Shown here: positions 4,482 to 26,410 of the stretch, in pieces
Layout of the letters: each line of letters opens with the position of its first letter
Numbering within the stretch: position 1 is the first letter of the stretch
Assembly: GCA_000995185.1 (NCBI GenBank)
Contig: LCET01000003.1
Location: forward strand, 70,989-111,984
Source of the DNA: Candidatus Woesebacteria bacterium GW2011_GWC1_42_9
Lineage (GTDB): Bacteria > Patescibacteriota > Microgenomatia > UBA8517
Direction of reading: 5' to 3'
Length of the DNA stretch: 40,996 nt
Position numbers and translations under genes: made by a program
The notes under the pieces: generated by a model
Told to the model about the DNA's origin: nothing
Seen by the model: only the letters and a program-made list of their open reading frames with translations
Database searches by the model: none

Positions 4482-4495
4482 AACTTTATCTCTTT
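4472..4495. terminator. Bidirectional terminator-like hairpin between rpsI and the surface-protein gene
   Basis: AAAGAGGTAAA (4472-4482) pairs with TTTATCTCTTT (4485-4495), 11 bp with one G-T pair and a 2-nt loop. It contains both convergent stop codons. T-rich sequence follows on the + side (CTCTTTATG), and a T6 tract follows on the - side a few bases further (4455-4463 read in reverse). Intrinsic termination in both directions is likely. Confidence 0.55.
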
Positions 4496-7400
4496 CTCTT
4501 TATGAGAAAGATAATGGCTAAAAGAAGTGAGATGCTTAATCCTCCGATTGCAGTCATTACTCGAATATCCCTGAATGGTGAGGTTGGTGATATCTGGATG
4601 GTGAATTTGAACTCTTCCACAGTATCCCCAGTGAGATTGATGTTCTGTTCTCCTTGTTGGTTGTTGTATGCAATTAATATCTGGTGTTCTCCTCCCTCTA
4701 CATTGGTAAATGCGGCAATTCCTTTTTTGTCTGTAGTTGCAGACTTCACCTCTGAATGAATCTCCACTCTGGCTCCCTCCACAGGGTTACTTTCCTCGTC
4801 TATGACCTTGACTGTGACAGCATACCCAGCTTCTTCTCCTGCTTCCTCTTCCCCAGGCAGGGTTAGCTCCCAGCCAACAACTAAATATCCGGGGTTGGTA
4901 ACCAGAGAGGGGTATTTGTCTTGGTTCAACTCAACCAGTTCCGGCCACCTGCTACCATCTCCAAGCATCTCTTCTGCTATGGAATACAAAGTATCCCCAG
5001 CCTGAACAGTGTATACCCCAGTTTCCCTCCCCACTGTCTCTATATCAATAATTTCAGTTTCCAGGTTAGTTCCAGTAGTCAAAGAAGGAATACCAAAATA
5101 TCCTCTCCCATATGTGGCAGCTGATATCTCCCCACTCCAAGGCCCAGTGGCACACCTATTCCCAGCTCTCACCCTGAAGTAGTATTTAGTCCCAGGAGAC
5201 AATTCCTGTACCAAGTAACTGGTAGTTCCCTTCCCCCCAATGCTCTCGGCTCCAAACTGATACACCCCAGACTTAGTCCCATATTCCACTGCATATTTGT
5301 CTACCGGTTCCCCAGCCTCAACCCATTGCAAAGCAATTGCGGACGAACTCTTAGCCGTGGCTGAATAAAGGTATGGTGAACCACCAGGGACGGTATCATT
5401 ACAAGATGTAGGAGAAGATGGAGGCCAAACATGGTCTGCGACTTCAAACGTTTTTGTAGAATACCCACCTGAATAATCGAAAGTAATTTGGCCAGATTGG
5501 CCTGCTATTTTCTCTGCAATTTTTTGACCATCTACTTTGATATCATAAATTGCATTAGGGTTTAGACTGCTAACCGTATGACCAGTGGTTATGCCTGCGG
5601 TTGACCCAGTTTCAGTCCATTTTTTATAATAATTTCCTGAAGTATTCCAGGTATCTATAACTACATCCACAGTTCCTGTTGAAGGAGTCAGAGTTAAATT
5701 AACCAGGCTGGTATTATTATATGGTTCGGTTGAGTAAGCAATGGAGCCTTCGGAATAAACGGTATTGGTTCTTCCAGTGTGTATACCCTCTGGGAGATAA
5801 AAAGTATGTTTTGAGTAAGTCAGAGCATTTCTTGAATGGAGGCTGGTAAATTCAGAGGAGCTACTTAACCACCCAGTATGTGGATATATCTCAACATCAA
5901 AAGGGTAACTAAAAGTAGTGAGAGTTTGCTCGGTATCTTGTTTATAGAGATATACTCTTAATTCAGAGTCTCCCACATCAACAGTAATGTTATCAGTGGG
6001 AGAATTCACTTTAACACCAATACCCATATTGCCATAAATAGCATCTGACAGTCTTACATCGTATACATTTGATCCCAAATCTGTAATACGAGGGACAGCC
6101 TGTAAAGTTATCCTATCCCATCCTGGGTAACCTGTAATTCCACTCACTGCGCTATCATCGTCGTTTATATATAAAACTCCACCACTTATTGTAACTATGC
6201 CTAAATCTTTAACATACAATTCTGTCTGTCCACTTGATGGAGCAGGCGCGACAAAATTATTCCAATTACTGTTATCAGTGGAGTAATAGTAGGTAATGTC
6301 TCCCTCTATGCGACTCCAGACATAGGCTCTTAAATAATACTGTCCGTCAGAAACAGAGAGAGGGATTGTTAAGGTGGGAACATTTTCTTCATTATCTTTG
6401 TATATCAAACTCGTTCCAGAGTCCCCGCTGTATATATTATAGTTAGTCCATTTATTGTCAGTGGTAATTAGACTGGAAACTATAGATTCTGTGGGAGTGG
6501 CGGATTCAGCCTCAACATTACTTTCTAAGCCTGTAAAGCGGGGTTTGATAGCAACATAAATATCCTTGACAGGTGCAGAGGCAGAGCCATTTGAAGCAGT
6601 ACCGGTTATTTGGAGTTTGTCGCTATCACTCCACGTTTTGAAAGTGGTGCTGTAATCAACTTTTCCGTCACTGCTACTAGCAGTATTTTGCAGAGAAGTT
6701 TCATATGAAGAGTTGCTGGGAGTAGCACTTGCGATTGTCCCATAATCAAAAGTTTGCGTATCATTGCTGTATTTCAGTGAATAGAGGAGTTGATCTTCAA
6801 AATCGTAATAAGAGTTGTGTGAACGAATGGTGTTTTGATTTTTATAAATTGGGGCATATATTGAGGTTTCGTATTGTTGTCTGTGTGAAGTTAAATTGGT
6901 GTGAGGATTTTGGGTATTTTGTCTAAGTAGGAAATAGGGCGAACTGACCAGTGCAGAAGATATGCCCGTTTTTTGGAGATAGATGTTGCTGGAGCTGTTT
7001 GTAGCTTGAAGGGTTGGGTTTTCTGTTGTAGTTGCGGTAGCGTTTTGATAATGATTTTGTGCAAAGGCAGATATATCTGTGTTGGTGGCTTCATTGGTTG
7101 TGTAATATATTGTCGTTACGGCGCGCTTATAGCCCTGCTTTATTGGTGAACCAAATGATCCGCCGCCTAAAGCAAAGTCTAGCTGATACTCATATTTCCA
7201 CTCACCAGTTTCTGCGACAGTACCTAAATGATCGTACACATCCGTAAATATTGTTCCGAAACTTACTGTCTCATCGGGGAATTGATAATTAATCCATGGG
7301 TATGTGTTGAGATTCGGGCTATGAATTTGGTGACCAACTAATCCAGACAATTGGACGGCATCTCCGTCTTTATCTGTAGCGTACCAATTGCTTGTTAAAT

Positions 7401-7961
7401 TTGGGTTTATCATCCACGCGAACTGGGATTGATTTGTGAGATATCCACTTGCATTAGTTACGGTTGCCTCGGCTTCACTTTGGAAATAGGGTTTTTTGGC
7501 CCAGAAAGTCCATGTCTCTATATAATTTGTTCCGTTATTAGTAGCCTCGGATTTTATGCGAATTTTTGAAGAAGTATTTTCTAAGATAGTTATTGAAATA
7601 GATGCTTCATCCTGTAAACCTATTGCGTTGTTTCCAGTCGCATTGCCCGATCCTTCTAAAAAACCTAATCCATACCGTGAAGTGGTAGCCGGTTCATGCA
7701 CTAAATTTTGAGATAAAGAGGTATCTTGTTTTTTGACGTATAAATATTCAATTATCCCTCTTGAATTGGAAGCGCTTGCTTTTGGTATTACAGCTTTGTA
7801 GTATTCATTTTCAATTGTGTAGTCATTTGCATTGTCGGTTAAAGTGACAGCCGCTTCGGCTGGCGATTGGAATAACAAAAGTCCAAAAACCACTAACGCA
7901 AAAACAAAGAAGAACCTCGCTAGCTTACCCAGGCAGTGTGTGTGTGTGTGTGTGTGGACAT
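4486..7961 (-). CDS. Giant anchored surface protein (FN3, LysM, CnaB-like domains), start disrupted by a (CA)n tract
   Basis: Large exported protein of unknown function, about 1135 residues from the first in-frame GTG (7893). Residue numbers below count from that GTG. A long N-terminal beta-rich region (about 1-800), rich in S, T and N, is not recognised. Then come a fibronectin type III-like domain (about 824-928), a LysM domain (961-1013, YTVQAGDTLYSIAEEMLG), a CnaB/carboxypeptidase-regulatory-like beta domain (1023-1106), a transmembrane helix (1112-1131) and a KRKR tail, so the C-terminus is membrane anchored. No LPXTG. The GTG falls inside a signal peptide whose basic n-region (GKLARFFFVFALVVFGLLLF) extends upstream. 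That frame has no ATG/GTG/TTG before a stop at 7969. The only ATG (7961-7959) is in another frame and joins the signal peptide if one CA unit is removed. Upstream on the same strand is a glycosyltransferase gene. LysM suggests peptidoglycan contact. Confidence 0.8.
7936..7956 (-). repeat. Dinucleotide (CA)n/(GT)n microsatellite, 21 nt
   Basis: Ten and a half uninterrupted GT units on the + strand. On the - strand the tract sits immediately after the candidate ATG of the giant surface protein. As sequenced, the ATG (7961-7959) reads 13 codons and stops at TAG. Loss of one unit, or gain of two, puts it in frame with the signal peptide. Tract type and position are those of slipped-strand phase-variable genes; function is inferred. 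Confidence 0.9.
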
Positions 7962-8004
7962 GTCTTACCTAGATTCTAATCCCAGGAGGGGGTGGGGTGC
8001 AAAT

Positions 8005-9621
8005 TTATTGGTTTGAAGTTTTTGACCAGAGGGTGTAAATAACTGTCTCGGCTTCGTTTGGCCGTTTGACCTCAGATAATATTTGGACATCTCCGCGATT
8101 ATGAAGATCACTCCCCTCTGAACATCCTTCAGCGTCAACCGCAAGGATATTGTCGGGTTTTTGGTTATCAAAAGCGTCTTGGGATGGACAGCGCTGAGTT
8201 GTGAAAATGTAGTTTCTATACGTCCACACTCCATGTTCCCTTTTGATCGCAGATTTGTTAAATTCATCCGGATTTAATTTATTAAAGAATGCGATCCATG
8301 GATATGGGTCGTCGGGGATGTTTGTAAGGAAGATTTGGTCGTATTTGTTTTCGACTTCATTTAATTGAAGCGCCAGTTCTTTTGAGCCGTAGCTTCTGCT
8401 GCCTGATATTTTATATACAGCGTGAGTAGAGTACATGTGCCAAAAAAATATGAAATTGGCGAGGATTGCGAAAGATAGTCCAACCGTAATTAATTTCGAG
8501 TATGGCTTGAAACTAGTCAAAAAGCTAAACCCAATTGCTTCAATTATCGAAAAGAACGGCACCATAAAAAAAGATCGGTGAAGGTTTGGCGCATCTTCGG
8601 TAGTGAGCGCAGCGGGCAAGGGCGCCGCAAGCAGTAGAAGGAGAGCAAGAAAATATTTATTTTTTCGCGAGATTGCGGCAAGGCCCACGAGCACAAGGAT
8701 AACCTCGATATAGGTTAGTACGCCTATTGCGGGGGTTCTATATCTTGCGGGCTTCCCCTCGTCGCCGATAAGGAAGTTCGCACTGAAATAACTTGTGTAC
8801 TCATTGATAAACTTCCTTGAATAAGTAAGCGGCTTGTTGTGGAAAAATCTGGCGATAAAGACTTTGTTTTCACCCTCCTCAAACGGCATTCTCATTAGTT
8901 CCTTTGCGGTATCGATATCGTTAAAGATAGAAACTTGAGAGAATCTCCCCCTTGCTTCCTTGTCAAAAGTAAACAGACCCGTGAGAAGGATCAATATTAT
9001 AGTGACGCTAACAGCATGTCTTTTACTTGTGATTGAACTATTTCGCCAAAGATAAAGAAGAGTGATCAACGCAAATGCAGGGGAAAGTAAGCGAGCTGAA
9101 TGATACAAAAGGTAGCCAATTAGGAAAGATATTATGCTGATAAATTTGTTTTTAGTAAGAAAGACTAGCCCGCCAAGAACAAAAAACATAGAAATAGCTA
9201 CTTCGCTTGTGGCCCGGCTAACTGAAATGTGCCAGGGAGAGATTGCTAAAAAGAGGCTTGCCAGGAGGGCAATACCCTTTTTATTAGTGAGAGCAAAGGT
9301 AAATAAGAATAAAGGAAAGATGGTTAGTGCCCCGAATAGCGCCGAGGGCAATCTCACGGCAAATTCATTAAGTCCCAGTATTGCAATCGAAGGAATCGTA
9401 AAGTAGATGATTCCTGTCGGTCGGAAATCGCCGAAGGTATTGTAGTACATGGCAAGTGTATTCCCCCGGTCATCCTGACCGGTTTTGAGTATAGAGTAGG
9501 CGTTCCAGCCGGCCCGTACTTCATCAGCATGGAACCCCGCGGGAAGTGAACTGAGCTTAATAGTCCTTAAAAGGAGGGCGAGAATAAAAATAATCAAAAG
9601 GCTTTTTTGAGTTTTATCCAC
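8005..9621 (-). CDS. PMT/ArnT-type membrane glycosyltransferase (GT39-like)
   Basis: Polytopic membrane protein of 538 residues, probably transferring a sugar from a lipid-phosphate carrier on the outer face of the membrane. The first transmembrane helix is followed by SLPAGFHADEVRAGWN, placing the acidic pair D33-E34 in the first external loop as in the PMT_2/ArnT family. Further signs are NEFAVRLPSALFGALTIFPLFL and SPWHISVSRATSEVAISMFF, about ten hydrophobic segments, and a soluble C-terminal part. The start is GTG (9621) because an in-frame stop lies two codons upstream. The giant surface protein begins 43 nt downstream on the same strand and could be a substrate; acceptor and donor cannot be told from sequence. 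Confidence 0.8.
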   Translation of the reverse strand: MDKTQKSLLIIFILALLLRTIKLSSLPAGFHADEVRAGWNAYSILKTGQDDRGNTLAMYYNTFGDFRPTGIIYFTIPSIAILGLNEFAVRLPSALFGALTIFPLFLFTFALTNKKGIALLASLFLAISPWHISVSRATSEVAISMFFVLGGLVFLTKNKFISIISFLIGYLLYHSARLLSPAFALITLLYLWRNSSITSKRHAVSVTIILILLTGLFTFDKEARGRFSQVSIFNDIDTAKELMRMPFEEGENKVFIARFFHNKPLTYSRKFINEYTSYFSANFLIGDEGKPARYRTPAIGVLTYIEVILVLVGLAAISRKNKYFLALLLLLAAPLPAALTTEDAPNLHRSFFMVPFFSIIEAIGFSFLTSFKPYSKLITVGLSFAILANFIFFWHMYSTHAVYKISGSRSYGSKELALQLNEVENKYDQIFLTNIPDDPYPWIAFFNKLNPDEFNKSAIKREHGVWTYRNYIFTTQRCPSQDAFDNQKPDNILAVDAEGCSEGSDLHNRGDVQILSEVKRPNEAETVIYTLWSKTSNQ

Positions 9622-24910: not shown

Positions 24911-26410
24911 ATGACGGAAAAAGGATTAGAAAGCCAGTTTAGTTCGCTTCTCAAGGAAGCTAAGGTGTATCTCAAAAATAAAGATATTAAAACTGTTGTC
25001 AGTGCTTGGGATTTTGCCAAGAGTGCCCATGCGGGTCAGAAACGCTTGAGCGGCGATCCGTATATTATTCATCCCTTAGAGGTTGCGAAGACCTTAGTTC
25101 ACTGGAAATTGGATAGAACTTCAATTGTTGCAGGGCTATTGCACGACGTGATCGAAGATACTGAGTATAAAGAGAAAGATATCGAGAAGAAATTTGGGAA
25201 ACCAGTTGCAAATCTTGTAAACGGGGTAACAAAAGTAACCAGTTTGAGATTAAAAGGTAGTCGTGAAGAGGTGTTTATTGAGACTTTGAGGAAGATGATA
25301 CTCGTGATGGCGAAAGACTTAAGGGTGGTGCTTATTAAGTTGGCGGATAGACTGCATAATATGAAAACCTTAGGGGCGCTTCCGATTGATAAACAGAGGG
25401 AAAATGCCCTTGAAACACTGGAAATATATGCACCATTGTCTGAAAGATTGGGGATTGGAGAGATTAAAGGGCGTCTTGAGGATCTAGCTTTTCCTTATGT
25501 GTACCCAAAGGAATTTGAAAGAATTAATAAACTCTCAAAAAGATATTATGAGCAGTCTCAAAATACCGTTGAGAAGATGCAACAGCGATTAACAAAAGAA
25601 CTAGAGAAAAATGGCATCAAGGCAAAAATTACCGGACGAAGGAAACATCTGTATTCTCTCTGGAGAAAATTGGAGCGAAAAGGGATAGGTGGCGATTTTG
25701 AAAAAGTCCAGGACATAATTGCTCTTCGAATAATAGTGAACACCGACCCTGATTGTTATGGAGTATTAGGTATTGTGCATGCCATTTATAAGCCCGTTCC
25801 GAAGATTGGAGTTTCTGACTTTATCGCGCTGCCCAAGCCAAACGGCTACCAGTCAATTCACACTAAGGTATTTAGCCCAAATTCGCACATTGTCGAGGTG
25901 CAGATTAGGACTCATGCCATGCACGATCAAGCTGAACATGGGGCTTGTGCACATTGGATGTATTCGAGTGAAAAAAACAAGGGGGTAAGCGATCGAGAAC
26001 TTGAAGATAAAGGGATAAAAGTGGGGAGCAAGCTTTCTTGGGTGAAAGAGCTTGTCCGTTGGCAGGATGAGCTGGCTGATTCAAAAGAATTTTTAGAAGC
26101 GGTAAAATTTGACGCTTTAAATCATCGTAATTTTATTTTTTCCCCGAAAGGTGATGTGTACGATCTTCCCCAGGGAGCGACGCCCGTGGATTTTGCATTT
26201 GTAGTTCATACTGGTCTAGGTAAGTATATTAGAGGGGCGACGGTGAACGATAAAATAGTTTCCTTGGACCAGAAGCTCTTTAGTGGGGACGTAGTTGAAA
26301 TAATTAAGTCAAAAGAGGCTCGCCGTCCCAATCGTGATTGGCTAGAATTTGTAGTTACAACAGTTGCCAGAAGAGAGATCTTGAAGGAAGCGCGGAAAAT
26401 CAATAATTGA
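24911..26410 (+). CDS. relA: RelA/SpoT-type (p)ppGpp synthetase/hydrolase, short form
   Basis: Makes and degrades the stringent-response alarmone. 499 residues. The hydrolase HD domain is intact (HAGQKRLSGDPYIIHP, LLHDVIEDT with H78-D79, KLADRLHNMKTL). The synthetase domain has ALRIIVN, FIALPKPNGYQSIHTKVF and VEVQIRTHAMHDQAEHGACA; the usual FKDYIA block reads GVSDFIA, keeping the aspartate but losing the lysine. A TGS domain follows (about 408-470, VYDLPQGATPVDFAF). The protein ends soon after TGS, lacking the helical, zinc-finger and ACT domains that read uncharged tRNA on ribosomes in long Rel proteins. Confidence 0.93.
   Translation: MTEKGLESQFSSLLKEAKVYLKNKDIKTVVSAWDFAKSAHAGQKRLSGDPYIIHPLEVAKTLVHWKLDRTSIVAGLLHDVIEDTEYKEKDIEKKFGKPVANLVNGVTKVTSLRLKGSREEVFIETLRKMILVMAKDLRVVLIKLADRLHNMKTLGALPIDKQRENALETLEIYAPLSERLGIGEIKGRLEDLAFPYVYPKEFERINKLSKRYYEQSQNTVEKMQQRLTKELEKNGIKAKITGRRKHLYSLWRKLERKGIGGDFEKVQDIIALRIIVNTDPDCYGVLGIVHAIYKPVPKIGVSDFIALPKPNGYQSIHTKVFSPNSHIVEVQIRTHAMHDQAEHGACAHWMYSSEKNKGVSDRELEDKGIKVGSKLSWVKELVRWQDELADSKEFLEAVKFDALNHRNFIFSPKGDVYDLPQGATPVDFAFVVHTGLGKYIRGATVNDKIVSLDQKLFSGDVVEIIKSKEARRPNRDWLEFVVTTVARREILKEARKINN

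Follow-up and report, generated by a model that had tools for sequence, protein, structure and literature searches.

A presumed slipped-strand switch at the start of a surface-protein gene in a Woesebacteria genome, and similarly placed repeat tracts in its relatives

Our subject is a CA dinucleotide tract at the start of a large surface-protein gene in a 40,996-nucleotide stretch of contig LCET01000003.1 (positions 70,989 to 111,984) of Candidatus Woesebacteria bacterium GW2011_GWC1_42_9. We refer to this whole stretch as the window. The gene, its features and the upstream gene described further on all lie on the minus strand. Read base by base, the start region consists of an ATG (7961-7959), the two bases TC, the 21-nt tract CACACACACACACACACACAC (7956-7936) and then TGCCTGGGTAAGCTAGCG. 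The tract, the presumed slippage switch, is a perfect (CA)10C, and the assembly has just one other of its kind. It is followed by an open reading frame (ORF) of about 1,150 uninterrupted codons (4486..7935), which begins with the coding region of a signal peptide (7849..7935, CLGKLARFFFVFALVVFGLLLFQSPAEAA) that by eye has a basic n-region, a hydrophobic core and AEA-A.

The relation between the reading frames is what makes the tract a potential switch. The signal-peptide frame reads ..THCLGKLARFFFVFALVVFGLLLFQSPAEAA.. and is open to the stop at 4486, in a frame different from that of ATG 7961. This frame has no ATG, GTG or TTG upstream before an in-frame TAG, and its first canonical start codon downstream is a GTG within the hydrophobic core (7891..7893). 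At the sequenced tract length the presumed start codon (ATG, 7959..7961) opens a mini-ORF of 13 codons, MSTHTHTHTAWVS-stop (7920..7961). The two frames are joined when 5+L is divisible by 3, L being the tract length, which happens with one CA unit less or two more. Since ATG 7961 and the signal-peptide frame are out of register, the sequenced tract length is the OFF state. The original prediction had put the tract between this ATG and the signal peptide of a large anchored protein, which is exact to the base. It had also stated that the signal-peptide frame has no start other than a GTG in the hydrophobic core (GTG 7893; right for ATG, GTG and TTG), that the ATG is out of frame and ends after 13 codons, and that one CA unit fewer or two more would join the frames, all of which agree with our reading and with the 5+L rule.

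The choice of start codon deserves more care. The sequence AGGT, which is Shine-Dalgarno-like, lies 5 nt 5' of ATG 7961 (7967..7970), and nothing comparable precedes GTG 7893 or a CTG that also stands in the ORF frame (7930..7932). If translation began at this non-canonical CTG 7932 (MGKLARFFFVFALVV...), the CA tract would be an untranslated spacer, and the resulting signal peptide would be textbook-like. However, CTG starts are very rare and the Shine-Dalgarno-like sequence is found before the ATG and not before the CTG. Additionally, orthologues of Avd, the product of an accessory gene of diversity-generating retroelements (DGRs) that often bears such tracts in relatives, usually have no ATG, GTG or TTG soon after the tract, so a common account based on downstream starts fails. 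We therefore regard a CTG start as very improbable. The original prediction, which called ATG 7961 the only plausible ATG, passed over CTG 7932 as a rival start. A promoter scan upstream of ATG 7961 gave no full sigma-70 match. A -10-like hexamer, TAGAAT (7973..7978), with no good -35, can be proposed 11 nt 5' of the ATG, and it is possible that the transcript is near-leaderless. TATAAT-like boxes stand directly 5' of several other start codons in the window (starts at 24911, 26444 and 37031), which suggests that leaderless transcripts are frequent in this genome.

Within the genome the tract is exceptional. C-initiated CA runs of at least five units occur at just 2 sites in the 894-kb assembly, each directly after a start codon, and within the 41-kb window the tract is the only dinucleotide run to reach 12 nt. 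The window tract is longer than chance predicts and, as a perfect tandem repeat, is far longer than the genome background. The second CA tract (C3:1-67 of G000, locus L009/L077) is on the same contig but outside the window, is at least 67 nt long and comes after ATGCCAAAACACAATCCAGTAAAGATATT. The assembled sequence breaks off within it, as it might be expected to do at an array that is long or of mixed length, and no CA repeat that could be its partner was found at any other contig end of the assembly. It adjoins a disrupted gene resembling BRO/antirepressor.

We propose, with a probability of roughly 0.8, that this is a simple-sequence (slipped-strand) contingency locus that would turn the surface protein ON and OFF. 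As predicted from the frames, the tract is so placed that gain or loss of repeat units would switch the translation of a gene that is intact. During replication, slipped-strand mispairing would add 2-bp units to the (CA)n or remove them. About one third of the lengths would then join ATG 7961 to the signal peptide and the protein of ~1,100 residues (ON), and the remaining two thirds would terminate after about 13 codons (OFF), which would be the state of the sequenced majority. The ON product would start with MST(HT)n, be exported by its signal peptide and be anchored at its C-terminus, with its LysM and fibronectin-like domains outside. We infer that the tract length is variable in this population and that ATG 7961 is the translation start. 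The benefit would presumably lie in surface heterogeneity among cells that probably live on other cells.

Relatives provide the comparison for this proposal. CA runs of at least eight units are rare in them: within the class, 14 of 374 genomes have one, and within the phylum 8 of 380. On the strand that reads CA, most of these tracts lie 5-48 nt after an ATG and have an open frame next. The original prediction expected a rare contingency locus, but the window locus is not isolated, as the phylum has many others like it and the same genome has a second. The genes with CA tracts include Avd (NCBIfam NF033474, several above the cut-off; Pfam bAvd), which is the most frequent kind of gene bearing tracts in the relatives, as well as a reverse transcriptase gene (L045, RVT_1), a protein with a signal peptide (L065), another with a Tat signal (L081) and type IV prepilins (L083, L088 and L087, N_methyl). 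Two FkbM-type methyltransferases (L066 and L101) carry a CA or GA tract mid-gene, one in frame and the other out. GA runs of at least eight units, which we ran as a control motif, turned out to have the same placement, before avd, prepilins and signal-peptide proteins. We accordingly rejected the view that CA tracts stand apart, as GA tracts, and also pentamers and C10 before avd, are placed alike.

When each tract was randomly reinserted into its own locus as a null for placement, 13% of the reinsertions fell at a start site as defined for the real tracts, compared with 19 of 24 CA tracts (p about 6e-13) and 11 of 16 GA tracts (p about 6e-7). An earlier and looser version of this null gave 24% since mid-gene insertions passed, and the stricter version was used. 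One CA tract is placed differently. At L078 (G026:C4:33569-33585) a (CA)9 run serves as the spacer of 20 bp that separates TTGACA from TATAAT in front of a small gene whose product begins MKIVILDDENK..., and this is a candidate for transcriptional phase variation. Several otherwise unrelated tracts (window 7957-7970, L067, L077, L081, L045 and L079) are preceded by a GGTAAAGATATC-like sequence, which may be a coincidence, a common N-terminal peptide or a DNA feature.

Across 30 loci the offset between the ATG frame and the ORF frame is 0, 1 or 2, and the loci in frame are the minority. The best single comparison comes from prepilin orthologues of two species in one genus, L093 (G187) and L094 (G337), which share 90.6% identity across 235 bp, the leader included. 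The former has (GA)10G and is out of frame (OFF), and the latter has (GA)8G and is in frame (ON), so that the two differ by two GA units and are in opposite phase. Length and phase thus vary at comparable loci of relatives. These mixed phases and this pair, together with the anatomy of the locus and the placement of the tracts, lend strong if indirect support to the phase-variation reading of the original prediction.

The same data bear on other explanations of an out-of-frame tract. One is that the ribosome slips on the CA tract by programmed frameshifting and gives constant low expression without switching, which would suit a sequenced state that needs a frameshift. However, orthologous and analogous loci would need shifts of 0, +1 and -1, some of them are in frame already, and the type of tract varies (CA, GA, AGGAC, C10). 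To our knowledge CACACA is not a slippery motif. Mixed offsets are as expected from free slippage and not from programmed frameshifting, and with no constant offset among the loci we rejected the latter, which has next to no probability in our judgment. A second explanation is that a consensus or sequencing error produced the tract length seen here, and that in the living population the gene is constitutively expressed from an in-frame tract. Consensus errors are commonest at short tandem repeats, but a 21-nt tract is well within one short read, and the many intact long genes of the window (RecA, RpoA, L13, S9, RNase Y) argue against a general indel problem. Even an error of one unit would leave a long CA tract between the ATG and the signal peptide, and relatives show such tracts in all three phases. 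We consider an error of this kind unlikely, although it is the least improbable of the alternatives.

The sequenced state being out of frame, the gene could also be a pseudogene fixed in that state. Against this are its ~1,150 stop-free codons and its intact signal peptide, domains and anchor. An intact ORF of this length would imply selection for translation until very recently. Additionally, about two thirds of the tract-bearing relatives are out of frame as well, as random phase predicts. A fixed pseudogene therefore seems improbable, to about the same degree as a CTG start, and a switchable gene caught in its OFF phase is the reading we prefer.

Mismatch repair affects this reading in both directions. 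The MutS_I mismatch-recognition domain has no match in the genome of this bacterium and is present in just 10 of 186 genomes of relatives searched, compared with 11 of 14 control genomes. Without MutS, 2-nt loops would go largely uncorrected, favouring switching. Two considerations should, on the other hand, lower confidence in a selected switch. Loss of mismatch repair could let tracts grow by mutation alone, without selection, and the 13% of the placement null was drawn from 3-kb loci centred on tracts and not from whole genomes. Because of the first of these, the argument for switching rests on the placement and phase of the tracts and not on their presence.

The protein that would be switched has the order signal peptide, long N-terminal region, fibronectin type III (fn3), LysM, carboxypeptidase-regulatory-like, hydrophobic helix and KRKR. 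The fibronectin type III domain (5122..5376; PF00041, E=8.3e-13) is followed by a LysM domain, which binds peptidoglycan or glycan (4855..5013; PF01476, E=1e-5, above the cut-off, with a match to a LysM tail protein in the PDB), and by a carboxypeptidase-regulatory-like Ig domain (4597..4818; PF13620, E=3.2e-7, slightly under the curated cut-off). The C-terminal hydrophobic anchor, from sequence, spans 4501..4554 and precedes KRKR. For the N-terminal 800 residues, single-sequence structure predictions gave no reliable fold, with predicted local distance difference test (pLDDT) values of 32 and 33. The gene directly upstream (8005..9621) is co-directional, encodes a PMT-like membrane glycosyltransferase (PF02366, E=3.5e-5) and ends 43 nt before ATG 7961.

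Many genomes in this lineage have homologues of the C-terminal part, among which L011 comes closest with 68% over 308 residues. Tract-less homologues (L011, L014, L015 and L020) have an ordinary ATG and a signal peptide. No orthologue of the whole gene was found among the 186 relatives, where C-terminal domains only were matched. The GTDB contigs gave a single partial match (L040, residues 723-836) and the viral contigs gave no orthologue. For the N-terminal region in particular, no full-length orthologue was detected in the relatives, GTDB contigs and viral contigs searched.

The pattern is seen most often in avd. An Avd profile search gave matches in 67 of 281 genomes, and 21 of the 30 best Avd loci have a repeat just after the start, made of CA, CT, AG, AGGAC pentamers or C10; as genes with a (CA)n tract were used to make the profile, this fraction is biased upward but the variety of units is not. 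CA repeats after the start are found at L067-L074, L079, L082, L084 and L085, CT repeats at L092, L095, L098 and L106, AGGAC/CAGGA repeats at L230, L233 and L247, and C10 at L239, L240 and L243. About 6 of the 21 tract-bearing avd genes are in frame, which is near one third, and repeat-less Avd loci (L251-L256) have a normal in-frame ATG. Since different units occupy one position of the family, they point to repeated selection for a repeat after the avd start, and the tracts suggest that DGRs are phase-variable through avd. The reverse transcriptase gene is divergent from avd, and in the two cases inspected (L079 and L082) the start codons overlap in CATATG, so the reverse transcriptase would be unaffected by the avd tract. 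A contig assigned to viruses (L136, IMG/VR contig 3300042876_001093) also has an avd gene with a (GA)19G tract before it. The genome of the window itself, which is 96% complete, has no Avd or reverse transcriptase match. For this reason the window gene lies outside any DGR, and we rejected the possibility that it is a DGR target or part of one.

The closest known parallel to the window locus is in Helicobacter pylori, where the signal-peptide region of oipA and related outer-membrane adhesin genes contains CT dinucleotide repeats (PMC10564699). In both cases the gene encodes a surface protein and has a dinucleotide tract at its 5' coding end, the mechanism is slipped-strand (here a predicted one) and unit changes bring the signal peptide into frame or put it out of frame. 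They differ in that the window tract is CA and stands before the signal peptide, whereas that of oipA is CT and inside it, and in that the host here is a reduced-genome candidate-phylum bacterium without MutS. The proteins are unrelated, the oipA product being an outer-membrane beta-barrel and ours an fn3/LysM protein with a C-terminal anchor. Pfam showed no Hop outer-membrane protein homology in the window protein and matched only fn3, LysM and carboxypeptidase-regulatory domains.

Haemophilus lic1A and Neisseria opa are experimentally established contingency loci with tetra- and pentanucleotide repeats. They share with the window locus translational ON/OFF control of surface determinants by the number of repeats, which lie in the leader or near the start codon, but their repeat units and genes are different and the switch in the window is a predicted one. 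The DGRs of candidate phyla are another route to surface-protein variation in the same lineages, and although the window gene is not in a DGR, their accessory gene avd bears the same kind of switch in relatives. Most of what is known of phase variation concerns host-associated pathogens. In the open-licence full-text literature we found nothing relevant that joins phase variation or contingency loci with Patescibacteria, the candidate phyla radiation (CPR) or Saccharibacteria, and nothing relevant that joins slipped-strand switching or repeat tracts with DGRs or Avd; neither absence is proof of novelty. These phyla do not figure in a 2025 review of phase variation.

The window locus belongs to a known kind, and the wider pattern of putative repeat switches at surface genes and avd in tiny genomes is the more interesting result. 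We think it likely, if with somewhat less confidence than for the window locus, that repeat-length contingency loci are a shared strategy of the lineage, in which CA, CT, GA, AGGAC and C10 have arisen independently after the starts of genes that shape or diversify the surface (exported or anchored proteins, prepilins, FkbM mid-gene and mostly avd). If so, many surface and avd genes may be missed or mis-started in annotation, the sequenced state being OFF. Avd is needed for retroelement-guided mutagenesis in the Bordetella phage system, and a phase-variable avd would make targeted hypermutation a heritable ON/OFF state, adding a layer of control over DGRs. More generally, switches of this type would offer a testable account of cell-to-cell variety in tiny-genome, probably cell-attached organisms with few regulators.
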